From a virus, in IMG/VR virus record IMGVR_UViG_3300006638_000013, positions 1-36,005 of that record: 36,005 bases of DNA, one strand, 5' to 3'. Below the pieces are notes generated by a model that was given only the letters and a program-made list of their open reading frames with translations, had not been told where the DNA came from and did no database searches. Below are positions 4,247-36,005 of this stretch, one piece after another. A program made the translations under genes and the position numbers. The first letter of the stretch is position 1; every line of letters starts with the position of its first letter.

Positions 4247-5823
4247 CCGATCTAAACCCAGAGCAACTCGCCGTCGTCGAGTCACGAACCCGCAAAGGTG
4301 CGCGATGTGTTATAAGCGGACCGGGTTCGGGGAAAACTTCGACGATGGTGGAGTTGTTTCACGCTCTGCGCGACTCAGGCGTTCCTGCATCCAACATCCG
4401 CTGTGCGACCTTCAGCAAAGAAGCCGCCAACACCATCGAGACTCGTGCGGGCGTGAAAGGCGTCTTCTCCACACTCCATAGTCTCGGGTACCTAATTTGT
4501 TCGGAAGACGGACGCAAGCCTGTCGAGCCCGAGCTACGTTTCCGTTTGATGTGCAGACTCATTCGTAAGTATAAACTCGACTACAAGGAACTGGACAGTT
4601 TCATTTCGAAAATGCGTCGCGGCAACATCACCCCGGAAGAGTCAGCGGAGAATTTCGAGTACGGCTACTCGCGCGCGTACGGGGAATACGAGCGAGAGCG
4701 CATCGCCGCAGGGTGGATGGACTTCGACAGCATGCTCTGCGACGCCGTACGCCTGCTTGAAGAGAACGCGGACACGCGAGCGCGCTGGCAGTACGAATAC
4801 CTGATTATTGATGAAGCCCAAGACACCGACAACCTGCAGTGGCGTATGATGCAGCTTCTGTCGGAGAAGCACGGCAACGTCACGGTGGTCGGCGATCCGA
4901 ATCAGGCGATCTATACATGGCGCGGAGCTAGTCCCGAGAACCTGACCAACTTCACGCAGTGGTTTCCGGGCGGAAAATATTTCTATCTTGGCAAAAACTA
5001 CCGCAGCACACAGAACATCGTCAAATTCATTCGGGAGAACGCACCGTCCGACTGTCCGCAGGAACTTCTCGACAAGATGGTGTCGGCTCGCACCGAAGTC
5101 GGAGCGCCCATTGGGATGAAAATGTATTTCACCGAGGACGCCGAAGCCGAGGCTGCGGTCGCCAACGCCCAGATAGACCCGACGAACAGCATCATCATCG
5201 CGCGCACGAACCAGATGCTCATGCCGCTGGAGCGCATCTGCGACGAGAATAATATTTTCTACCATCTGCTCGGCAAATCGGGGTTCTGGAAGCAGACCGA
5301 AATAAGCAAAGCCATCAACGCGCTGAAAGCGCACCCATCACTCTCAACGGAAGCGGCCATCGCGCAAACGTTTCCCGAACTCGAATCGAAATACGCTGTG
5401 GACGACCGCACCGAGAGGGACAACGACGCGCTCAAGAATCTGCAGACGCTGCGTATCATCGCCGAGGATTTCAAATCCAATAAAGAGTTCATCGTCTACG
5501 CCAACAAGAAAATGCACCGCAGAAATACGGTGAAAGGTTTGACAATTTCCACAGTTCACCAAGCCAAAGGCGGCGAATGGAAGAACGTGTTCATCATCGG
5601 CGCGCGAAGCGGAATGATGCCGCACATCAAAGGTGACGCACGCGAAGAGCGGCGCATCTATTTCGTGGCGATCAGCCGCGCCATCGACCGCTTGCGCATC
5701 ACATTCGCGGGCAGTCCGTCACCGTACCTTGACCGCTACCTGCCCGAGGCTGTGCTGGACAAGTTGCGCGAGAAGGCAGGCGAGGTTGAGAAGATTCAGA
5801 AGCAAACCAACTTTTTCGCTTGA
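4243..5823 (+). CDS. UvrD/PcrA-like superfamily 1A DNA helicase
   Basis: 526 residues from the ATG that overlaps the HNH stop. All helicase motifs are visible: Q motif LNPEQLAVV, Walker A GPGSGKTST (about 26-34), Ia TFSKEAANTIE, II IIDEAQDTDN, III VGDPNQAIYTWRGA, IV YFYLGKNYRSTQNIV, V GLTISTVHQAKGGEW, VI EERRIYFVAISRA. It is shorter than host UvrD (about 720 residues) because 1B/2B insertions are reduced, as in phage versions. It would unwind DNA 3'-5' in replication or recombination. The longer ATG at 4162 lies inside the HNH gene and is not needed. Confidence 0.93.
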   Translation: MTDLNPEQLAVVESRTRKGARCVISGPGSGKTSTMVELFHALRDSGVPASNIRCATFSKEAANTIETRAGVKGVFSTLHSLGYLICSEDGRKPVEPELRFRLMCRLIRKYKLDYKELDSFISKMRRGNITPEESAENFEYGYSRAYGEYERERIAAGWMDFDSMLCDAVRLLEENADTRARWQYEYLIIDEAQDTDNLQWRMMQLLSEKHGNVTVVGDPNQAIYTWRGASPENLTNFTQWFPGGKYFYLGKNYRSTQNIVKFIRENAPSDCPQELLDKMVSARTEVGAPIGMKMYFTEDAEAEAAVANAQIDPTNSIIIARTNQMLMPLERICDENNIFYHLLGKSGFWKQTEISKAINALKAHPSLSTEAAIAQTFPELESKYAVDDRTERDNDALKNLQTLRIIAEDFKSNKEFIVYANKKMHRRNTVKGLTISTVHQAKGGEWKNVFIIGARSGMMPHIKGDAREERRIYFVAISRAIDRLRITFAGSPSPYLDRYLPEAVLDKLREKAGEVEKIQKQTNFFA

Positions 5824-5866
5824 CTTGGTGAAGGGAATGTGAGATAGATCGGTTGAGGTAAATAGG

Positions 5867-6484
5867 ATGACAATCGGAGATAGAATTTCAAAGCGCGGTT
5901 TGAATGGAACAGTGCTATCGGTAGTTGGTTCGGCGGCTGGGTACTTCACTGCGGCAATGGATGACGGCACCGTGAGATGGTTCGCTGCGGGGCAGTCTGA
6001 AATTATCGCGAGCGCCCCAGATTATTCGCAAGGGACTCAGAACGTGGCTCTCCCCGAAGTTTTGGAAGAGAGCATGCCCGTTTCCGTCGTCGCTGAAGAA
6101 CCTAAAGAGAAGCAGCGAGTGCGGGCTCCACTATCGGAGCCTCTACCGTATAGCGTGTCGTCTCTGTTCATCGGGCATTTGAAAAAATCATACAAACTCC
6201 GGTTACTTTATCGCGAAGAGTCGGAAAGGTACGTTAAGGATTGGTTTAACGAAAATCAGTTGAGCCTGCCCACAGATATTCGCCCAGTAAAAAGTAAGAT
6301 GGCGTCGGTGGCGGGTACGCTCGCCTTTCCGACCCCCGATGACACTTCGTTTCTGCCGCCGACATTACACTACATTTCGCGGGGCAAAAATCTAGAGGTG
6401 AACGATGTCCGTTTGGTGGTTGCACTCATGAAGTTGGGTTTTGAGATAAACTCGTACGCCAAAAAACAAGGAGCATCAAAATGA
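5867..6484 (+). CDS. hypothetical protein (205 aa), two-part
   Basis: Residues 1-45 (GDRISKRGLNGTVLSVVG ... DDGTVRWFAAG) look like a small beta-barrel of SH3/Tudor style. A Pro/Glu-rich linker leads to a helical C-terminal part (SSLFIGHLKKSYKLRLLYRE). The family is not recognised. A 43-nt gap with TTGACT at 5820 and GAGG upstream precedes it. Its stop overlaps the next ATG. Confidence 0.8.
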   Translation: MTIGDRISKRGLNGTVLSVVGSAAGYFTAAMDDGTVRWFAAGQSEIIASAPDYSQGTQNVALPEVLEESMPVSVVAEEPKEKQRVRAPLSEPLPYSVSSLFIGHLKKSYKLRLLYREESERYVKDWFNENQLSLPTDIRPVKSKMASVAGTLAFPTPDDTSFLPPTLHYISRGKNLEVNDVRLVVALMKLGFEINSYAKKQGASK

Positions 6485-7129: not shown

Positions 7130-8003
7130 TTTTTGTCTTCGGGGTTCACCGTCGTTATATATTGAGGAAATTTCGCTGGTAATCGCAACCGCGTTCGTGA
7201 AGCAGCATCACTACTCCAAAGTGATGCCGAAATTGAACAAGGTGGTTCTGGGGCTGTTTGACCCGACCGCCCGTCTAGTGGGAATAATCACATTCGGCTG
7301 GGGTGTGCGGCCAAAAGACACGATCCGCGTTTTGTTTCCCTCGCTGGACTCCCAAGACTACTTAGAAATCGGAAAACTGTGTCTACTGGATGAATTGCCG
7401 AAGAACAGCGAAAGCAGGTTCATTACGGCGGCCATCCGCTGTCTTCGACAAATGCGTCCCGACCTGAAGGTTCTGTTCACATGGGCAGACGCGATTTGGG
7501 GCAAACCCGGATACATCTATCAAGCCAGCAATTTCTACTGTGGCCCGTCTATATCATCGGAAGCGTACCGAGACAGCAAGGGCCAGCGGATTCACCCTCG
7601 CCAACTGCATAAGCTGTTGATTTCGATCGGGGAAATCACTGCAGGAAAAAAAGGACGTTATGTGACGCCCACTGAAGTGCGCGAAAATCCAAAACTAGGG
7701 GTCGGTAATTGGGCTCCCCGTAACACCAAGTCTGGCGTACGTCGCCCGTTTCCGAGCGACATGGCTCGCTTAGGTCTATCCCATGTGCGCGGGCTGCAGT
7801 TTCGGTATGTTTATTTTTTGTGTAACGCCAAGATCGAGCAGAGGCTATTAGCGGAATCGACTGTCGCTTGGCGTAAGACCGACTATCCAAAAACAGCAGA
7901 CTGTATTTGGACAGTCAGAAACGGAGCGGAGAACTGGCATAACTGGACACCCGGAGCCGAACCCGTTTTTACCGCAGCATTCGATACGGAGAAAACCACT
8001 TGA
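7068..8003 (+). CDS. Mom-like DNA base-modification protein (GNAT-type fold)
   Basis: 311 residues. The central region matches the Mu Mom family, which modifies adenine in phage DNA to evade restriction: QHHYSKVMP, LVGIITFGWGV, LEIGKLCLLDELPKNSESRF, CLRQMRPDLKVLFTWADA, then PGYIYQASNFYCGP. A C-terminal extension (about 185-311) has IHPRQL and a basic segment. The ATG has GGAGG 7 nt upstream, but both lie inside the tRNA-like element. The first 20 residues are therefore tRNA-derived, and there is no other standard in-frame start before the conserved part. The role as anti-restriction modification is inferred from family motifs. Confidence 0.65.
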   Translation: MAEQSPIRVKEGGSIPPAPLHFCLRGSPSLYIEEISLVIATAFVKQHHYSKVMPKLNKVVLGLFDPTARLVGIITFGWGVRPKDTIRVLFPSLDSQDYLEIGKLCLLDELPKNSESRFITAAIRCLRQMRPDLKVLFTWADAIWGKPGYIYQASNFYCGPSISSEAYRDSKGQRIHPRQLHKLLISIGEITAGKKGRYVTPTEVRENPKLGVGNWAPRNTKSGVRRPFPSDMARLGLSHVRGLQFRYVYFLCNAKIEQRLLAESTVAWRKTDYPKTADCIWTVRNGAENWHNWTPGAEPVFTAAFDTEKTT

Positions 8004-8473
8004 ACACGGAATCGCAAGCAAAGCAGGAAATCTCAGAAGCATACGACGCAGCTAAGGCGGCTGGAGCAGTGGATGACACCAGTGCGGAGGGGCACACCTT
8101 CGGGCGCGTGTGTGTAAAGTGGCACGACTGGTACGTGGTTAACAAACCAAAAGATAAGGGCGACCGCATTCGTTTTATGTGGAAAGCCCTCGGCATCCCT
8201 CACACAACGGCGTACCATTGGATGGGTATCTACAGAAAAACGAGCGGAGAAAAGCCGCCGATTGTGGAGTACACTAGGGAAGAACTTGAACACCAAGAAC
8301 GCAAAAAAACTAACGAGGAGAGGCTGTTACTATTGTTTGCGGAGTGCGGGTTTCCGACCTACGTCAAACAGAATTGCGCTACAAACGAGCTACATTTCAA
8401 TGTGATTTTTTCCGCATTGACTGAAACAGAAGTGAGAAGTCTGGCCGAATTGGTGGATCGACGCGGAAAATGA
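8000..8473 (+). CDS. hypothetical protein (157 aa) with helix-turn-helix-like segment
   Basis: TTG start overlapping the TGA of the mom-like gene, with GGAG 8 nt upstream. The segment RIRFMWKALGIPHTTAYHWM resembles a helix-turn-helix with a recognition helix, so DNA binding is possible. The C-terminal half is mixed alpha/beta (ERLLLLFAECGFPTYV). No family is assigned. Confidence 0.75.
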   Translation: MNTESQAKQEISEAYDAAKAAGAVDDTSAEGHTFGRVCVKWHDWYVVNKPKDKGDRIRFMWKALGIPHTTAYHWMGIYRKTSGEKPPIVEYTREELEHQERKKTNEERLLLLFAECGFPTYVKQNCATNELHFNVIFSALTETEVRSLAELVDRRGK

Positions 8474-9441
8474 AGTCAGAAGAATTTCAACTCGAAGAGC
8501 CGTTGCACTTCTACAACGGCTCAGTCACCCTGCGTTTTGACAGGGCGAATTGGCATTGGTACATCGAGCACCCAGACGGCAGACTCGAACGGGTGTCGGG
8601 TATCACGGGCGTCGTCGGCATCATCGACAAAAGCATGTATCTAGTGCCGTGGGCGTGCAAGATGATGTACCTCAAGATGCTGCGCCTCATACCCACAGAA
8701 GACAACCGCATCAAAGCGATCACGATGGGCGAATTCGACGCGCTCCTGATGCAGTCCAAGTCTGCGCACAAGGACAAATTCGAAGACGCTGGCGACGTAG
8801 GTACGGCGGCGCACAAATGGATCGAGGCTACCATTCGCAACGCCATCACGTTTAATCACGGCGTCGTAGATAAAATGAACGACATGGCTCCCACAGATGA
8901 ACGCTCAATAAGCTGCGGCATGGCGGCGTTCGACTGGATGCAGAGACATAACGTGCGCTGGATTTGCACGGAGCGTGTCGTTTACAGCCGGAAGCATGGG
9001 TACGCGGGCACCACGGACGGGCTCGCGATGGTTGATGCTTGCGAGAACCCGGCATGCTGTGGTAGACTGTTTCTTGACGAACTGGACCTGATCGACTGGA
9101 AGTCGAGTAACGCGCTGCGCATCGACTACCTGTACCAGACGGCGGCGTACCAAAACGCAATCGTCGAGGATACGGGCGAAGACATCAAGGCGCGCTGGAT
9201 TCTTCGGCTCGGCAAAGAAGACGGAAAATTCGAGGCGTGGTATGAGACGAATTTCGAGCAAGATTTCTCTGGGTATCTCGCATGCCTGAATCTGCAGCGT
9301 GTGCATCGCGCGGTCGAACAGCGGATGTCTGAGCAGAAAAAGTTGAAGACGTTCACTAAGCGTAAAGCCGCTAAAGACGTGAAAGAGAAAATCAAGTTCG
9401 AGAAACGGACCATAAAAGAGCAGGGCAAGTTCGGGTTTTAA
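8470..9441 (+). CDS. PD-(D/E)XK superfamily nuclease (RecB/Cas4-like)
   Basis: 323 residues. The core motifs are GTAAHKWIE (helix with the conserved His), GYAGTTDGLA (first Asp), LIDWKSS (the D-x-K pair) and YLYQTAAYQ (the Q-xxx-Y helix), in the order seen in RecB-like exonucleases. The extreme C-terminus is strongly basic (KRKAAKDVKEKIKFEKRTIK). It probably processes DNA ends for the ERF annealing protein, as lambda Exo does for Beta. That pairing is inferred from genome context. ATGA overlap with the upstream gene. Confidence 0.82.
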   Translation: MKSEEFQLEEPLHFYNGSVTLRFDRANWHWYIEHPDGRLERVSGITGVVGIIDKSMYLVPWACKMMYLKMLRLIPTEDNRIKAITMGEFDALLMQSKSAHKDKFEDAGDVGTAAHKWIEATIRNAITFNHGVVDKMNDMAPTDERSISCGMAAFDWMQRHNVRWICTERVVYSRKHGYAGTTDGLAMVDACENPACCGRLFLDELDLIDWKSSNALRIDYLYQTAAYQNAIVEDTGEDIKARWILRLGKEDGKFEAWYETNFEQDFSGYLACLNLQRVHRAVEQRMSEQKKLKTFTKRKAAKDVKEKIKFEKRTIKEQGKFGF

Positions 9442-14937: not shown

Positions 14938-16140
14938 GTGACCGACGCCGTCTTACTTATTCCGTACCTATTCTTGGTGTTCTGGGCAGCGAAGTTGACG
15001 TTCGCAGGCATCTTGCGAATCGCCTCCCCAGAATTGGGGCTGCAGAAAGACTACAGCTTCACACCATCCGTGGTCGTCCTTGTCTCCTGCTACAACGAGG
15101 GCGAGGCTATTTACGCCACGTTGAAGGCGGCGGGGGAGAGTAACTATCCAAAGGATAAGTTCAAAATTCTTGCCTTTGATGATTGTTCCAAGGACGATAC
15201 GTGGGAATGGATGCAGATGGCAGCGGACAATTTCGAGTGCGTCACGGCGTCGAGGAATGCGGTCAATAAAGGCAAGGCTATCACGATTGGCGAAGCGATT
15301 CGGAACTCCACGTCCGACATCATCATCACCATCGACTCTGATACCCAGTTGGATGCGAATGCGATCCGCGAAATGATAGCGTGTTTCTCGGACCCCAAGA
15401 TCGCTTTGGTTGGCGGGGCGGTCAAACTAATCAACCCGAATGAAAACTCGCTCACGGCGTTTCAAGCGTACGTGTACGCGATATTCTTCCACTGGCTGAA
15501 ACTACCCGAGGCGTATCTGCGGCAGGTTGCGGTGATAAGCGGTTGCATGTCGGCGATTCGTCGGAGCGTTTTCGAAGAAATCGAACCCGCCATCGAGAAG
15601 CGAAACTTCTTAGGGGTATCGGTGCGTTACGGCGAAGACAGGTTCATTACGCATCAGACTCTGCTGCGCGGGTACCAAACATTTTTCAACCCGCGTGCGA
15701 TTTGCTGGACTACGGCACCGAACACATTCGAGGGATATTGGGGACAGCAGATTCGATGGGCGCGCAGCGGTCTCGGGGACTCGATTAAGACCATTACGCA
15801 CCCGTACAGCAACACGGTCGTCGGCACGCTGGCGTTGACCAGCTACCTGCTGACCACGGTGACGCTCCCCATCATGATGTGCTCTTTTTGGCTGTCGCTT
15901 TCGAGTGATCCTGCAAGTTCAGTCACCGCTAAATGTTTAATGTGCGCAGGGTCTGCGATTGTGGTAGTATGGTTTATGAATTTCTTTTCCCACATGAAGG
16001 CGAACCCGATAAAAGTTGTAGGCTTTGCGACATGGGGTTTGATTAAAGTTCTGTTCTTGGTTCCATCCGCCCTGTTCACACTCGACTTCGATGGCTGGGG
16101 CGGCGCACGAAACAAAAACGACGAAAAGGGGTCACAATGA
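14938..16140 (+). CDS. processive family 2 glycosyltransferase (hyaluronan/chitin/cellulose synthase-like)
   Basis: 400 residues, GTG start with GGAG 7 nt upstream. An N-terminal membrane helix (5-27) precedes a GT2 domain: VSCYNEGEAI, FDDCSKDD (82-87 region), TIDSDTQLD (D133/D135 metal site), SGCMSAIRRS, GEDRFITHQTLLRGYQTFF (catalytic GED, 232-234) and QQIRW (270-274), the Q-x-x-R-W product-site motif of processive synthases. Three or so C-terminal membrane helices follow. The pattern is closest to hyaluronan synthase/NodC. It should polymerise and export a beta-linked polysaccharide across the inner membrane. The sugar cannot be read from sequence. Confidence 0.9.
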   Translation: MTDAVLLIPYLFLVFWAAKLTFAGILRIASPELGLQKDYSFTPSVVVLVSCYNEGEAIYATLKAAGESNYPKDKFKILAFDDCSKDDTWEWMQMAADNFECVTASRNAVNKGKAITIGEAIRNSTSDIIITIDSDTQLDANAIREMIACFSDPKIALVGGAVKLINPNENSLTAFQAYVYAIFFHWLKLPEAYLRQVAVISGCMSAIRRSVFEEIEPAIEKRNFLGVSVRYGEDRFITHQTLLRGYQTFFNPRAICWTTAPNTFEGYWGQQIRWARSGLGDSIKTITHPYSNTVVGTLALTSYLLTTVTLPIMMCSFWLSLSSDPASSVTAKCLMCAGSAIVVVWFMNFFSHMKANPIKVVGFATWGLIKVLFLVPSALFTLDFDGWGGARNKNDEKGSQ

Positions 16141-27549: not shown

Positions 27550-28080
27550 ATGGACTACTATTCATACCTGTGGCTGCGCGCTTCGGATGGCTCCCCATAT
27601 TACGCGGGGAAGGGTTCAGGCAGGCGTGCCGTTAAAGGCTATCACGGCGTACATCGCCCGTCTGATAAATCACGAATCCTGATTTTTCCAATGCTGAACG
27701 AAGCGGAAGCGTTTGCATCTGAGGTGGCGTTGATTGAATTATTTGGACGGAAAGACCTTGGGACAGGTTGTCTTCGCAATAGAACGAACGGCGGCGAAGG
27801 AACTTCGGGGCATCACCACAATTCAACTTCTTGCGCGGCTATTTCAGCGTCCCTACTCGGCAATAAGCGCGGCGTAGGAAATACGAATCGCGTCGGTCAT
27901 CACGCGTCTCTTGAAACACGAAAGAAACAATCCATGGCTAAGATGGGAGGCAAGAACGGATTCGGTAATCCCGCGAATGCTGCGAGACAAGCCGCACGAA
28001 ATCGCGGCACACATCATCCGCCAGAAACTCATCGCAAGATGTGGGACACACGCTTCATCAAAACTGTGGCATGGGGTTAG
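27550..28080 (+). CDS. GIY-YIG family homing endonuclease with NUMOD3-like repeats
   Basis: 176 residues. The N-terminal nuclease domain shows YSYLWLRASDGSPYYAGKGS GRR (divided for length), a diverged GIY...YAG form, then SEVALIELFG and the C-terminal Asn of the fold in RNRTNGGEG. The second half has two SxxxGxxxxxG-type repeats (ISASLLGNKRGVGN; SMAKMGGKNGFGN), like NUMOD3 DNA-binding modules. It interrupts the late operon and carries its own leaderless promoter. Confidence 0.82.
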   Translation: MDYYSYLWLRASDGSPYYAGKGSGRRAVKGYHGVHRPSDKSRILIFPMLNEAEAFASEVALIELFGRKDLGTGCLRNRTNGGEGTSGHHHNSTSCAAISASLLGNKRGVGNTNRVGHHASLETRKKQSMAKMGGKNGFGNPANAARQAARNRGTHHPPETHRKMWDTRFIKTVAWG

Positions 28081-28167: not shown

Positions 28168-29394
28168 ATGTCGATTTCATCGCGCGGTTATACGTCCAGC
28201 TTTCGAGGGTCAAATCCCCCGGGCGCGTATTTCGTTGTCTACCCTACTGACTTTAGTACAGGAAGTTTGGCTCCTGTTGTAGGGGACGTTAGTTTGGGCT
28301 TGGCTGGCGCATACGCCATTTTGGCATATAGCGGAATTACAGGCTCTGCTGCGGCGGGTACGAAGATCACGGGCGGGAATATCGGCACTGCGCCGACGAT
28401 GTCAATCTCTAACTTTCCTCCGTCACAGGTTGTGTTGCCGGGGATCATCGACAACGCGAACGCTGCGGCTGCACGCACTGCAGGATTGGCTGCGTACACC
28501 GCGTATGCCGCTCTGTCATTTACCGATTTGGGCACTCTCGCCAACCTGAGTACTTCAGGGAACGGCGGCACGAACGTTTATTTTGCTGGCAGATTTTCAT
28601 CTCCCGACTCCATGACGATGCCTACGGGTATCGTGTTGGATGCTCAAGGCAATCCGAACGCAGTCTTTATTTTCAAGGCGGGGTCTACGATCAACTTGGC
28701 TTCGGGTCAATCTGTAGTGTTGATAAACGGCGCGCAGGCCAGCAACGTAATTTGGCTTGTCGGCAGTTCCCTCACCACCGTGGCGACTTCGAACATGGTT
28801 GGAACCATTCTCGCTTATGCCTCCATCACGCTCGGCGGCGGAACTCTCGTCGGTCGCGCGCTGGCGGTCGGCGGCGGCAACGGCGCGGTCACTATCTCAT
28901 CGACTACGGTCATTTCGACGGGTTTGACTGGCGGCACCGTCTCCTATCAGAACTCTCTCCCGCTAGTGCCCGCAGAGAGCACGGCAGATTACGTTTTGAT
29001 TGTCGCAAACACCGGATCGCAATGGAAAACCCAAAAGTCGGTTCTCTATGCTCGCCCGAACGGCACCACCGAAACGGCAGGCATCGTCATCGACGGCGTC
29101 GACTGCATTCAGCCTGTGTATCCGGGTACCTCGACAGTTGTGACGGCGGGATTCAACCCAGCGTCGTACATGGAACTGAATGGATATTTGTTCCAAGCAA
29201 CGACGACGGGTACGACTGCGGCGAACTTCATTGGGTTCAGCGCATTCAACCTCGCGAAGGGTGCGACTACTACGGACGGAACCGTTGTATGGACTTCGTT
29301 CGGGAAGGCGGTTATCGTTCGCATTCGGTTCGCGAACGTGTCGATCACGGCAGCCACTCCGGTCGCCCAAGAGTACGACGTTTGGGAAGCATAA
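28168..29394 (+). CDS. virion protein with inserted ice-binding (DUF3494-type) domain
   Basis: 408 residues from the ATG with AAAGGA upstream (an ATG at 28123 lies in the hairpin leader). Residues about 40-250 are a full DUF3494 ice-binding domain: SLGLAGAYAILAYSGIT, ITGGNIGTAP, FTDLGTLANL, TGIVLDAQGNPNAVFIFKAG, SVVLINGAQASNVIW, VGTILAYASITLGGG, LVGRALAVGG. Residues 1-35 and 255-408 are homologous to the next gene product, so the domain sits inside a structural protein. No signal peptide is present, unlike secreted ice-binding proteins. It probably projects from the virion as an adhesion or ice-binding module. Confidence 0.82.
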   Translation: MSISSRGYTSSFRGSNPPGAYFVVYPTDFSTGSLAPVVGDVSLGLAGAYAILAYSGITGSAAAGTKITGGNIGTAPTMSISNFPPSQVVLPGIIDNANAAAARTAGLAAYTAYAALSFTDLGTLANLSTSGNGGTNVYFAGRFSSPDSMTMPTGIVLDAQGNPNAVFIFKAGSTINLASGQSVVLINGAQASNVIWLVGSSLTTVATSNMVGTILAYASITLGGGTLVGRALAVGGGNGAVTISSTTVISTGLTGGTVSYQNSLPLVPAESTADYVLIVANTGSQWKTQKSVLYARPNGTTETAGIVIDGVDCIQPVYPGTSTVVTAGFNPASYMELNGYLFQATTTGTTAANFIGFSAFNLAKGATTTDGTVVWTSFGKAVIVRIRFANVSITAATPVAQEYDVWEA

Positions 29395-29424
29395 AACAGT
29401 TCGTTTGAGCAGAAGGATAATCTC

Positions 29425-29955
29425 ATGGCAGGTTCACGCGGTTATAACAGTCGTGCATATGTTTCAAACGCCCCCGGCGCATTTGATATCGTCGGCGCGG
29501 CAGATTTTACGAACGGCGCACAAGATACGCTGCCGCTTATCGCGGCAAGCAGCACGGTCGATTATTTCGTTCGTGTTGCAAACTCGGGTTCGCAGTGGAA
29601 GGTTCAAAAGACCGTCCACTACATGCGTTCCGATAGTCTCGCTGATCCCACAGGTATCGTGGTCGGCGGCGCGGATTGCATTCAGCCTCCATACCCCGGC
29701 ACGGCCACGGTCGTTGCAACCTCGGCGTACATGGAACTGAACGGCTATCTGTTTCAGGCGACTACGGGCGGAACCACGGCGGTCAAGTTTATCGGGTTCG
29801 CGAATTTTAACACCGTGAAGGGTGCGGTGACAACGGACGGCTCGGTCGTGTGGACCTCGCGCGGCAAGGCGGCGCTGGTTCGGTTACGGTTCGCCAACGT
29901 AAGTTTGGCTGCCGCGACACCAACGGCTCAAGCGTACGAGTTCTTCCAGTTTTAA
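29425..29955 (+). CDS. virion structural protein, paralogue of the preceding gene without the insert
   Basis: 176 residues: SRGYNSRAYVSNAPGAF at the start aligns with SRGYTSSFRGSNPPGAY of the neighbour. From TLPLIAASSTVDYFVRVANS onward (GSQWKVQKTV, DCIQPPYPGTATVV, MELNGYLFQATTGGTT, VTTDGSVVWTSRGKAALVRL) the two are clearly duplicates. It represents the ancestral form lacking the ice-binding domain. The shared TDGxVVWTxxGK phrase also occurs in tail proteins. Likely a small appendage or decoration protein. Confidence 0.75.
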   Translation: MAGSRGYNSRAYVSNAPGAFDIVGAADFTNGAQDTLPLIAASSTVDYFVRVANSGSQWKVQKTVHYMRSDSLADPTGIVVGGADCIQPPYPGTATVVATSAYMELNGYLFQATTGGTTAVKFIGFANFNTVKGAVTTDGSVVWTSRGKAALVRLRFANVSLAAATPTAQAYEFFQF

Positions 29956-30836: not shown

Positions 30837-32255
30837 ATGAACTTTAACGGCGTACCGAATGTGAACATGACAACGACCGTACAGGCAATGGCGGAGCAGT
30901 TAAAATTACACACGAAGTTGCAGAACTATTTCAACGTCGGTGGCATCAATGGGCAGCCGATGCTTTCGATTGCGGAGCGCGTCAACCAGATGCTGCTCAT
31001 TCGGCGCATGGCGTGGAAATTTAACCGCGTGGATATGGGCAGCAACAACCCCGCAGTGAACCCACATTTCTTCGTGAGTCAGTTGGGATTTCAAGATTAC
31101 AAACACGCGGGCGCATCCTGCTTCACGCTGATTAACAGCACGACACCGGGCGGGCAACTTCCCGCTGGCGGCGCGGGCGTGGATTTGAACCCCGGCGTCT
31201 ATCAGAACGCGTATACGAAAGTGAACTACGGAACATTCAACGGCGGCGGCACCTTTGGCCCCACCGGAAATTGGCAGACTGCAGGCATCATATTCGATCC
31301 CGTGGCTGGCACACTCACCGTGCAGTTTCTGGACCCGCATCCGTTCCGACCCGAGAACATCGGAGCGAGCATCGTCCTGATCGCGGGCGTAGTCAATCCC
31401 GCGTACAATAGCCTGTTCACGTACAATCAGCTTGACCAGACCAGCCAGTGGTTCAACGGATACCAGTTGCTCGCCGTCCCAGATCATTTTCACGTTGTCC
31501 TCGCGACGAACGGTCGACAGATGGGGGCGATCACCAATATTTCGGCGGCTGGCGGCATCACAACTGTGGCCGTCGTTAACGGTAACGGCTTCCCCATGGG
31601 AGGCTTCGTCCCGGGCGGGATAATGACCTTTGCGAGCGTCGGCGTGAATGCTGGGCTCAACGGCAAGACCGTGACGCTGCTCACGGCTACGGGCACGGCA
31701 GTGACGTTTACTACCCCCACAGGCGTCGCTATCACGAACGGCGCGGACTCTGGGACCATCTACGCGGCACCGAGCGGCGCGCCGGGAATTTGGAACCTCG
31801 GCTGGCTTCAAGCGGCAGCGCTGATCGACATCAACAATCCGTCGTTCCCACTTCCCGTGAATCCTATCGATGCGGTTCACAGACTCTCACCCGAATACAC
31901 CGCGACGGGCGACAACATATCGCTGTCGTGTGAACGGGATTTCGGAAACGGCGTAGTTGAGTTTCGAATATCCGAGCCCGTCTCGACGTATCCGTTTGCG
32001 TTCTCGGTCGTGTATCAGGCGCGCGCGCCGAAGTTCATCAGCGGGCAGAGCGTGTTTCAATGGCCGGATGATTTGTCCTACGTGATTTTCGAATTATGTC
32101 TTGCGATGGGGATGCGCTTCGCGTACGGGATGTCTGCCGCAGAAACGCAGCAGCAAATTCAGATGGCGCAGGCAGCCATCATGAACGCGTTGCAGTCTGA
32201 AGACCGCGAGGCGAACACCGAATCGATCACCCCGCAGTTCAGTTTGATGCGATAG
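30837..32255 (+). CDS. phage structural protein (472 aa)
   Basis: No signal peptide; N-terminal helices (MTTTVQAMAEQLKLHTKLQN, IAERVNQMLLIRRMAWKFN) then Gly-rich beta structure. Residues about 230-305 form a module (ITNISAAGGITTVAVVNGNG, NAGLNGKTVTLLTATGTAVT, ADSGTIYA) that is also repeated in the partial tail protein at the right edge. The C-terminus is helical (MSAAETQQQIQMAQAAIMNA). Its position with a late promoter and beside a tail fibre suggests a virion surface or tail component; the exact part is unknown. The last 17 nt overlap a minus-strand gene. Confidence 0.75.
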   Translation: MNFNGVPNVNMTTTVQAMAEQLKLHTKLQNYFNVGGINGQPMLSIAERVNQMLLIRRMAWKFNRVDMGSNNPAVNPHFFVSQLGFQDYKHAGASCFTLINSTTPGGQLPAGGAGVDLNPGVYQNAYTKVNYGTFNGGGTFGPTGNWQTAGIIFDPVAGTLTVQFLDPHPFRPENIGASIVLIAGVVNPAYNSLFTYNQLDQTSQWFNGYQLLAVPDHFHVVLATNGRQMGAITNISAAGGITTVAVVNGNGFPMGGFVPGGIMTFASVGVNAGLNGKTVTLLTATGTAVTFTTPTGVAITNGADSGTIYAAPSGAPGIWNLGWLQAAALIDINNPSFPLPVNPIDAVHRLSPEYTATGDNISLSCERDFGNGVVEFRISEPVSTYPFAFSVVYQARAPKFISGQSVFQWPDDLSYVIFELCLAMGMRFAYGMSAAETQQQIQMAQAAIMNALQSEDREANTESITPQFSLMR

Positions 32256-32866: not shown

Positions 32867-34207
32867 ATGATAACTCTAATCAACGGAAACATCCAAAATT
32901 GCGGCGGTCTCGTGGTTCCGAACGGCTCCGTGTCGTTTCAGTTGAACGTGGACGCGACGATCATCGTAACGCCCTTCGGTATCGTCGCTGGCGGAATCCC
33001 AATCAATTTTCAGTTCGATAAAAACGGCGACCTCGTTCAGCCTGCACAGCTTTGGTCTAACGCGGAATTGAATCCGCAGAACAGCATCGGGCTCGGCACG
33101 TATTATTTGGTGTCGTTCTACGACGCGAACGGCGCGATCATCAACAAGGTGCCGATGTGGTTTCAGTTTACCGAGGCAGATGGCGATACGGTCGACCTCG
33201 GACAGGTCACGCCGTTTGCGACCGTAGGAGGCAATGTGATTTTCTATCCGACATCTTTCGCGATTCAACCGCCGTCCCCTACGACCATCGGCGGCATATT
33301 TTCCAATGCGGGATCGCCCGGTCTGTTTGTGACAGCCATCAACACGAACGGCTCGGTCACGCTCTCCCCCATATCGTTTTCCGAAATTACCGGAATTTTA
33401 ACGAACGCGCAACTTCCGAGCCCGCTTATTTTTACGGCTACCTCGTTCAGCGGTCTCGTCACCGCCCAAGCGAATGAGGAACTGGGTGTGATTGGCACCA
33501 CGACGGGTCAACTCACTTTCGACGGCGGCACCACGGGGCAAGCAACTATCACAGGTCCTGCGGTTGCGGGAACAAGTACCAATCCGTTCACATTCAGCAA
33601 CAGCATCAATATCCCGGGCAGCGCAGCTTTTACGATCAACACCGACACGGGGATTTCTCGCGCGTCAGCCGGGGTGCTTGATGTCGGCAATGGAATCGTA
33701 GGCAACGCGTCTGGTACCGTGAACGCTGCGCAGTTTAATGTGGCGGGCTCCCCAATCGCGGCTACGAATCTCGCGAACGGCACGACGGGCTCGGGCTCGA
33801 TTGTGCTCGACGCATCTCCCGCGCTCGCTGGAATTCCTACAGCACCAACTGCAGCCGCGCTGAATAACTCGACGCAACTCGCGACGACCGCTTATGCGGA
33901 CGCTGCGACTGCGGTAGAAAAGGCTCGCGCACTCGCGGCAGAATCCTTCCTCCCTCCTGTGTATACTGCCGCTGGGGTAGAACAGACATCTCCACACATC
34001 GTCTCAGATACCGCGACGCTAGCTGGCGGAACCGTAACAGTCACGCTTGTGGGGAGCGCCGCGTTCACGTCCGCGACTTCGTATCACGTTGTGATTCAAG
34101 AAAAGACAACCGCCCTCTCGACTCAGGTGACCCAAGTGAGCGGAAGCAGCTTCATCATCACAGGTACGGGAACGGACGTAATCAACTTCATCGCAATCGG
34201 AAACTAG
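32867..34207 (+). CDS. probable tail fibre / receptor-binding protein
   Basis: 446 residues, beta-rich. N-terminal domain (MITLINGNIQNCGGLVVPNG ... LGTYYLVSFYDANGAII) resembles a virion-attachment beta-sandwich. The middle holds GITGIL-like and NGSVTLSPISFSEITGI strands, and then IPTAPTAAALNNSTQLATTA, the PTAPTAAxGTxTTQxATTAY motif common to tail fibres. A short coil (DAATAVEKARALAAESF) precedes a C-terminal beta domain (TATLAGGTVTVTLVGSAAF) that may contact the host. Likely trimeric by analogy with fibres. Promoter motif copy 4 lies just upstream; no strong ribosome site. Confidence 0.8.
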   Translation: MITLINGNIQNCGGLVVPNGSVSFQLNVDATIIVTPFGIVAGGIPINFQFDKNGDLVQPAQLWSNAELNPQNSIGLGTYYLVSFYDANGAIINKVPMWFQFTEADGDTVDLGQVTPFATVGGNVIFYPTSFAIQPPSPTTIGGIFSNAGSPGLFVTAINTNGSVTLSPISFSEITGILTNAQLPSPLIFTATSFSGLVTAQANEELGVIGTTTGQLTFDGGTTGQATITGPAVAGTSTNPFTFSNSINIPGSAAFTINTDTGISRASAGVLDVGNGIVGNASGTVNAAQFNVAGSPIAATNLANGTTGSGSIVLDASPALAGIPTAPTAAALNNSTQLATTAYADAATAVEKARALAAESFLPPVYTAAGVEQTSPHIVSDTATLAGGTVTVTLVGSAAFTSATSYHVVIQEKTTALSTQVTQVSGSSFIITGTGTDVINFIAIGN

Positions 34208-34250: not shown

Positions 34251-36005
34251 ATGCCGAAAAAAGCTGCCCAAAGCGATCCCGCTCTGGCGATAGAATTTTG
34301 GTTAAGCGGATTCTACACGCACAGGTCGCAACTCTTTGCCCCCTTCAAGGGCATCGGGGTAAATGTCGTTTCGTTTCATGATCCCGTCATCGACGGCGCG
34401 AACATGGAAGACACGGACCTTTTCGAATGGTCTCGGCGTCCCGGTTTCTCTATCTTCTGCCCGGTTGTTCTCAATATCGGCGAAATCGTCGACGAATTCT
34501 ACAGCTTCCGAAATTTCAGCGGTAACGTCATCGCCCTGTTTGACTCTAACCAGCGCATCGCGCAGTTCACAGATACCACCATCACGTCGGTCATCCCAAA
34601 AACTACGGCGAACGAAGGGTTCATCAGCGCCATCGGGGACATGATGTATTTTTCGGACGGCGCATCTGTGGATATGCAGAAGTGGGATTCCGCAGAGCCG
34701 TTCTCGACTATCAATCCGTCTTCTTGGGGACTTCCCGCACCGACGCTGGCACCCGCGATATTTAACCGTGGATGCTGGCTACCAAAAACGGATTTTGTTA
34801 TCAACAACGCGATCCTAGACCCGAACGGAAACGTCGAGGTGGTGACCGCGATCAATGGCGTGGCGGGAATTTCCGGCGCGAATGAACCGCTCTGGCCGAC
34901 CACGGTCGCGTCCACGATCAACGACGGCACCATACAGTGGACGAACATGGGTCCGCTGACGACATGGCTGCCAAACTCAAACTACCCCGTCCCTGTGGTA
35001 GTGCTGGATACGAATGGAAACCTGCAACTGGCGACCACTACGACGAGCGGAGTTACGGACTGGGATGCGGCGACCGCGTACACAGTCGGTGAGACAGTTT
35101 TCTTCGGCGGAAATTATTGGACGGCTCTCGTTGCTAACGTCGACGTGCCGCCGACGGGCGGGTACATCGTAACCACAGGCGCGGTTCAGCAACCTTACTG
35201 GGTGCTGTCTCAGAATCCTATCGTCACCGGACCCGTGGCACCGACTTGGTCAAAGATGGTTGGCGGGACGACAGTTGACGGCAGCTATACGTGGACGAAC
35301 ATCGGACCCGGCCAGCTTACGGAGTCCTTCGGTACCTCGTACGTCTATGCCTATCGCACAATCTACGGGCATCTCTCGACCTCGTCACCGATCAGCATAA
35401 ATACGGGTGCGATCTTCGGACCAACTGTCGCGGCGATCACCGCGTACTCGGTTACCGGAAACGTCGTGACTTTTTTTGGGACGAATAATTTTATTCCGGG
35501 GAACGTGTTCACCGTAGAAGGGCTCGCGGTCGGCACGTTTTTGAACAACCAGTCATTCACGGTCATCGCGGCGGGACTTTCGCCGACGCAATGGTCTGCG
35601 GTCTTTAATTATCCTGACGTGGCTGCGACCATAGACTCGGGTTCCACGCTCAACTTAGTCGCGCAAGTGACGGGCGCGGGCAATACTTCGCCGTTGTGCA
35701 ACGCGGTCGTGTCGATCACCGCTACCTCAGTTCTTGCAGGAATCGTCACAGTGTACGCGGTCAACGATTTTGTTCCGGGGCTTCAGGTCACGTTCGCGGG
35801 CGTAACCGTCGCGACATTCCTGAACGGCCAGCAGTTTCAGATCACGAACGTGGACCCGCTCGGGACATGGTTTCAGGTTTATTTTGCGACGCTGAACGGA
35901 GCGCTGCCTCCTAACCAAATCCAGACCACGGATTCAGGGACCGCGACATTCAACGCGATTGAAATCTACCGGACGAGCGACGGCGGAGGCATCTATCTAT
36001 TTACG
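34251..36005 (+). CDS. large tail/virion protein with carbohydrate-binding-like and repeat modules, partial
   Basis: 585 codons are visible before the right edge. N-terminal part (FWLSGFYTHRSQLFAPFKGI; FYSFRNFSGNVIALFDSNQR; ISAIGDMMYFSDGASVDMQK) is followed by two WPTTVASTIND-GTIQWTNMG / SKMVGGTTVDGSYTWTNIG units. Between them lies DWDAATAYTVGETVFFGGNY WTA (divided for length), matching the chitin-binding CBM5/12 pattern. Then come two tandem repeats with NFIPGNVFTVEGLAVGTFLN and DFVPGLQVTFAGVTVATFLN. Probably a tail protein that binds surface glycans. No ribosome site is visible before the ATG. Confidence 0.75.
   Translation, partial: MPKKAAQSDPALAIEFWLSGFYTHRSQLFAPFKGIGVNVVSFHDPVIDGANMEDTDLFEWSRRPGFSIFCPVVLNIGEIVDEFYSFRNFSGNVIALFDSNQRIAQFTDTTITSVIPKTTANEGFISAIGDMMYFSDGASVDMQKWDSAEPFSTINPSSWGLPAPTLAPAIFNRGCWLPKTDFVINNAILDPNGNVEVVTAINGVAGISGANEPLWPTTVASTINDGTIQWTNMGPLTTWLPNSNYPVPVVVLDTNGNLQLATTTTSGVTDWDAATAYTVGETVFFGGNYWTALVANVDVPPTGGYIVTTGAVQQPYWVLSQNPIVTGPVAPTWSKMVGGTTVDGSYTWTNIGPGQLTESFGTSYVYAYRTIYGHLSTSSPISINTGAIFGPTVAAITAYSVTGNVVTFFGTNNFIPGNVFTVEGLAVGTFLNNQSFTVIAAGLSPTQWSAVFNYPDVAATIDSGSTLNLVAQVTGAGNTSPLCNAVVSITATSVLAGIVTVYAVNDFVPGLQVTFAGVTVATFLNGQQFQITNVDPLGTWFQVYFATLNGALPPNQIQTTDSGTATFNAIEIYRTSDGGGIYLFT

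Follow-up and report, generated by a model that had tools for sequence, protein, structure and literature searches.

How phages persist through soil freezing, and how their particles are retained near rare hosts, is poorly known, and the locus described here raises the question of whether a phage particle could itself carry an ice-binding module. The locus lies in the window, which denotes the whole stretch of viral DNA analyzed, namely the entire IMG/VR record IMGVR_UViG_3300006638_000013, of 36,005 bases, linear and probably a fragment. An initial annotation made from the sequence had proposed that one of two adjacent genes, here P0001, is a duplicate of its neighbor P0002 into which a domain of the DUF3494 ice-binding family was inserted, and that the product is carried on the virion rather than secreted.

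Pairwise comparison confirmed the proposed kinship of the two ends of P0001 to the adjacent 176-residue protein. Residues 261-407 of P0001 aligned with residues 33-175 of P0002 at 62% identity over 147 aa (BLAST, E 5e-63), and the left arm matched P0002 residues 4-32 with 14 of 29 identities, a score reached by none of 200 shuffles. This indicates that P0001 is the P0002 scaffold with DUF3494 placed between residues 32 and 35 of the empty copy, of which the insert displaces only about 2 residues. Insertion into one copy of a duplicated gene therefore held, with a boundary nearer residue 33 than the proposed position after residue 35, a trivial difference. An equivalent tandem pair was found in the nearest relative, L009, whose P0001 counterpart is 71% identical overall, with a dN/dS of 0.195 for the domain as against 0.082 for the C-terminal scaffold. 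The same pair at this identity and low dN/dS indicates that the arrangement is not an assembly artefact, and that duplication and insertion are older than the split between the window phage and L009; we infer that the duplication came before the insertion. The scaffold itself had no relative in PHROGs, Pfam, or INPHARED (tblastn), its profile (A7) was too weakly conserved for scanning, and AlphaFold modeling gave a pLDDT of 36.8 for P0002 and mostly <50 for the P0001 arms.

Coordinates and evidence for the P0001/P0002 pair, its parts, its neighbors and the homing-endonuclease-like genes (window positions unless another record is named)
Feature	Coordinates	Strand	Evidence or remark
P0001, 408 aa, scaffold with inserted DUF3494 domain	28168..29394	+	ORF/translation (ATG at 28168), PF11999 E 1.2e-34
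P0001 left scaffold arm, residues 1-33, matching P0002 4-32	28168..28266	+	alignment and shuffles, second BLAST segment
P0001 inserted DUF3494 beta-solenoid, residues 38-250	28279..28917	+	PF11999 51-248, AlphaFold model
P0001 right scaffold arm, residues 261-408, resembling P0002	28948..29394	+	62%, E 5e-63
P0002, 176 aa, scaffold paralogue without insert	29425..29955	+	ORF, BLAST; tandem pair also in L009 5037-5585
472-aa neighbor	30837..32255	+	nearest relatives 67-73% identical; weakly alike gene there carries DUF3494 in L037/L043
446-aa neighbor, tail-fibre-like C-terminus	32867..34207	+	phrog_32740 E 8.2e-12; Tunturi_3 gp15 (tail fiber) matched weakly, E 2.8e-5
Large gp19 homologue, 585 aa to contig end, truncated	34251..36005	+	Tunturi_3 gp19 E 2e-20 (tblastn E 2e-17)
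Homing-endonuclease-like gene, window	27550-28080		
Homing-endonuclease-like gene, L003	8593-9357		
Homing-endonuclease-like gene, L042	8994-9785		
Homing-endonuclease-like gene, L053	11298-11879		
Homing-endonuclease-like gene, L059	11123-11893	-	

Around the pair, several further features were observed. A 148-aa low-complexity GAGKGAGKGKGAG-type protein lies directly after P0002 (29971-30417), and L009 has a 167-aa counterpart (5592-6095) similar in its C-terminal part. In the gp19-type protein of the window, residues 271-297 gave a sub-threshold match to the carbohydrate-binding CBM_5_12 (E 0.0047). PDB profile searches with the gp19-type and 472-aa families did not confirm a suspected T7-like tail-nozzle identity, since nothing beyond the DUF3494 portion was matched except by chance. 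Farther upstream, a GtrB-like glycosyltransferase gene (14938-16140; phrog_841, E 8.8e-12) is possibly, judging by similarity, a surface-antigen modification gene.

The DUF3494 domain claimed for residues 40-250 of P0001 was borne out by a match to PF11999 (Ice_binding), the sole Pfam match in the protein, spanning residues 51-248 and profile positions 1-207 of 208 (E 1.2e-34; 120.3 bits, with a curated cut-off of 28.7 bits). All PDB sequence matches of P0001 were DUF3494 ice-binding proteins as well, with 6eio at the top (E 4.5e-21). The predicted beta-solenoid was also recovered: the AlphaFold model, having a pLDDT >90 over most of residues 41-250, forms a discontinuous beta-solenoid with a long helix (99-114), and structural comparison gave Z scores of 30.3 and 30.2 to 7bwy and 7bwx, at an rmsd of 1.6 over 199 residues, of about 29 to FfIBP, and of 28-30 across about 25 solved DUF3494 ice-binding proteins. 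Among the viral structures of BFVD, only a DUF3494 protein of Hyperionvirus matched significantly.

Mutations have located the ice-binding face of AnpIBP, with S153Y and T156Y cutting the activity to 17%, and the repeat of FfIBP reads T-A/G-x-T/N (PMC7277481). P0001 S200 and T203 align with AnpIBP S153 and T156, and its six B-face segments (SGIT, DSMT, STIN, SSLT, ASIT and GAVT), placed through alignment to AnpIBP and not from coordinates, come near the FfIBP repeat. Across 36 phage domains, 99-100% of the residues in B-face columns 1-2 are small, and column 4 holds Thr in 75% of cases and T/N/D in 90%, versus 13% and 22% overall, whereas column 4 of five actinomycete DUF3494 controls had T/N/D in 18 of 30 positions (hand count). 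As far as these alignments go, the ladder is better kept in the phage domains than in the five controls, a contrast of degree, and the residue pattern makes ice binding by the P0001 domain likely.

The same kind of fusion, when sought elsewhere, proved widespread in IMG/VR. A protein search recovered 3 related contigs, and a profile built on their domains recovered 54 loci; all 34 records searched whole contained PF11999, with 63 domains and a maximum of 6 per record, although these records were chosen for DUF3494 and so give no prevalence estimate. After domain masking, 45 distinct carriers fell into at least 11 scaffold groups, this count being a lower bound because shared fibre-like repeats chain two large groups. 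An empty paralogue adjoins the carrier in five scaffold kinds (window/L009, L004, L013/L035, L029 and L039/L046). A 508-aa carrier in L004 lies beside a 293-aa empty copy, with the insertion at residues 218|220 of the latter; the insertion in L013/L035 falls at empty-copy residues 94-100|100-106; and the L029 insert stands in place of some 80 empty-copy residues. These independent insertions into other scaffolds indicate that DUF3494 insertion is a repeated event. The absence of a signal peptide claimed for P0001 agreed with its N-terminus, which had no hydrophobic signal-like stretch when judged by 10-residue hydropathy alone (best value 0.74, versus 2.89 in the L032 leader). On the viral contig L032, the DUF3494 protein at 7506-8798 (430 aa) has a signal-like leader and is the lone secreted-looking carrier. 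Searching the deposited phage genomes of INPHARED by tblastn with four queries found no DUF3494, although Synechococcus phage S-SKS1 is named in PMC11515562.

Phylogenetic analysis placed 52 phage domains apart from 5 actinomycete ones (100/100, on a small outgroup), with scaffold types intermixed. When scaffolds D and E, groups defined by scaffold and not taken from the tree, were each constrained to one clade of the domain tree, both constraints were rejected (p-AU 1.1e-8 and 1.1e-9, respectively), which indicates either repeated movement of the domain from scaffold to scaffold or its replacement in situ. The dN/dS of the domain was 0.02-0.20 in seven comparisons, two of them with near-saturated dS, indicating that the domain is kept by selection. 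Two scans of 84,980 species genomes, conducted with very narrow patterns, found no close relative as a cellular source. Homing-endonuclease-like genes (GIY-YIG/NUMOD3) lie next to or between DUF3494 carriers in several records, in positions that vary even among close relatives. Pfam matches to GIY-YIG and NUMOD3 were obtained for the copies in L003 and L059, and none of significance for that of the window. Such genes might help to move the DUF3494 cassette, and their linkage to DUF3494 showed no clear excess over random placement.

Whether the carrier proteins belong to the particle was approached through Tunturi_3 (PP885686), an Arctic tundra podovirus that was isolated with Tunturiibacter psychrotolerans (Acidobacteriota) as its host (PMC11924767) and was the only deposited phage matched by large proteins of L043 and the window. 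Its genome gave no PF11999 match. Tunturi_3 gp19, annotated as head decoration, is collinear with a 1635-aa protein of L011 on both flanks of the L011 domain. Adjacent genes were found to swap the domain: gp19-type large proteins carry it in L045, L011 and L055 and lack it in L043, L037 and Tunturi_3, whereas gp13-type proteins carry it in L037/L043 (685-924 aa) and lack it in L045/L011 (315-322 aa). In G002, the closest relative of the window, the gp19-type protein has a second DUF3494 near its C-terminus (E 5.2e-88). We obtained 80 loci with a capsid protein at least 79% identical to the query over the best segment, and among the 51 with a Tunturi_3-like capsid protein and at least 2.5 kb beyond its gene, a DUF3494 gene starts 225-1021 bases past the capsid gene in 10, and no DUF3494 lies within 2.5 kb past it in 41. 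Two of the 10, L117 and L147, are insert-bearing orthologues of Tunturi_3 gp7, which directly follows the capsid gene and is annotated as tail fiber; their insert lies between empty residues ~224-229 and 228-239, as compared with L110, L105, L135, L144 and Tunturi_3 gp7. In L047 (7015-8961) and L039 (6451-8325), the capsid gene, which shares ~80% identity with Tunturi_3 gp6, occurs as two ORFs about 0.9 kb apart, as if interrupted by an insertion.

By annotation, which for most of these genes derives from similarity only, the DUF3494 domain appears to sit in particle genes. Scaffold D directly follows the capsid gene; scaffold A, that of the window, is not beside a capsid gene there, and the window fragment showed no Tunturi_3-type gene for terminase, portal or capsid. 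Terminase, portal and major head protein genes are present in G001, which has a module in synteny with that of the window. As the scaffold has neither database relatives nor a usable model, the designation of P0001 as a virion protein rests on its neighbors, notably the tail-fibre-like gene and the gp19 homologue, and on analogous carriers. Its carriage on the particle is indirectly supported by analogy, in that the domain occurs in genes homologous to virion-type genes of Tunturi_3, an isolated podovirus, and in many cases directly follows the major capsid gene.

The occurrence of the domain in varied particle genes of dozens of soil-phage contigs suggests that certain phages carry on their particles modules that grip ice or surfaces. 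We give an even chance to the reading that P0001 is a virion-surface protein displaying an ice-binding DUF3494 beta-solenoid, a mobile module among the particle proteins of soil phages. One copy of the tandem-duplicated scaffold would retain its assembly role through its two arms, and the inserted solenoid would project outward, like the Ig-like domains of other phages; the module is mobile and has been placed repeatedly into differing particle-type proteins of this and related soil phages. On the particle, the flat Thr-rich B-face may order water and adsorb to ice, which could tether particles at ice-water boundaries or limit ice damage during freeze-thaw. For P0001 itself, then, we infer particle presence, outward display, ice binding and benefit. 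A broader proposal, that a large group of soil tailed phages repeatedly and independently fitted head and tail proteins with ice-binding domains as a general adaptation that anchors particles in freezing soil or helps them to survive there, is more tentative and stands somewhat below an even chance.

The finding of DUF3494 also in mesophilic Streptomyces and Rhodococcus plasmids, that is, in soil actinomycetes, makes binding of another ordered surface the main rival: the displayed domain could grip a crystalline polysaccharide, a mineral or a host surface polymer and serve as a general adhesin concentrating phages near hosts. DUF3494 has been described in ice-binding as well as substrate-binding and surface-adhesion proteins across environments (PMC12337378), phage Ig-like domains are thought to serve such surface adsorption (PMC9022992), and the evidence of insertion and virion context fits this rival equally. 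Nevertheless, the stricter T/N/D ladder of the phage domains relative to the actinomycete ones fits selection for ice-like water ordering better, albeit with a small control set, and we consider the non-ice adhesin possible but rather unlikely.

Two further readings appear much less probable. The domain could bind nothing specific and be a mere spacer or decoration, with the virion surface tolerating a mobile beta-solenoid, as would suit an accessory domain that most of the examined capsid loci and Tunturi_3 do without; but the purifying selection, repeated independent insertion and multiple copies per record speak against this, as does the conservation of outward-facing residues and not of the core alone, and we hold it improbable. 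Least probable is an auxiliary gene for ice protection of the infected host, the role suggested for ice-binding-like genes of Arctic marine viruses, among whose vOTUs PMC11515562 reports three PF11999 genes and reads them as host cryoprotection. The leader of the L032 relative, which could be secreted, is in keeping with such a role, but P0001 has no secretion signal, and the domain is built into phage scaffolds that have counterparts lacking it in particle gene blocks, which sets it apart from a free-standing secreted protein.

Should the module bind ice, it would represent a particle-borne trait gained or lost by a single domain insertion, and natural pairs with and without it adjoin an isolated, culturable phage, Tunturi_3, whose host is a cold-tolerant acidobacterium. 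With a ligand other than ice, the module would still be a second promiscuous display fold besides the Ig-like one and offer a way into many phage surface proteins that lack annotation.

A literature search, weak as evidence because subscription journals fell mostly outside its scope, returned no paper joining DUF3494 and phage or reporting ice-binding domains in particle genes. Compared with the type 1 ice-binding proteins of DUF3494/PF11999 (AnpIBP 7bwx, FfIBP 4nu2 and 6eio), P0001 shares the profile family, the beta-solenoid with helix, and the B-face layout of small outward residues and a Thr-rich column. The known members are secreted or cell-anchored in cells, whereas the P0001 domain lies inside a phage scaffold without a signal peptide. 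Viral genes of the ice-binding/antifreeze group, to which P0001 also belongs, are reported from the Arctic (PMC11515562) and, as a single antifreeze gene, from Southern Ocean viruses (PMC8407431); in the accessible portions of these papers they are read as host cryoprotection, and no insertion into a particle gene is described. With Tunturi_3, the window shares a homologous gp19 and, weakly, gp15, and relatives with a capsid protein at least 79% identical carry the domain, whereas Tunturi_3 differs in having no DUF3494 and in its insert-free gp7 and gp19. Tailed phages also have promiscuous Ig-like display domains (Fraser et al. 2006, cited in PMC9022992), which are likewise accessory, mobile, found in several classes of particle proteins and variable between orthologues; the phage DUF3494 differs in its beta-solenoid fold and presumed ligand, and its surface exposure is putative. 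By this analogy, phage DUF3494 would work like the promiscuous Ig-like display domains without being a member of that group.
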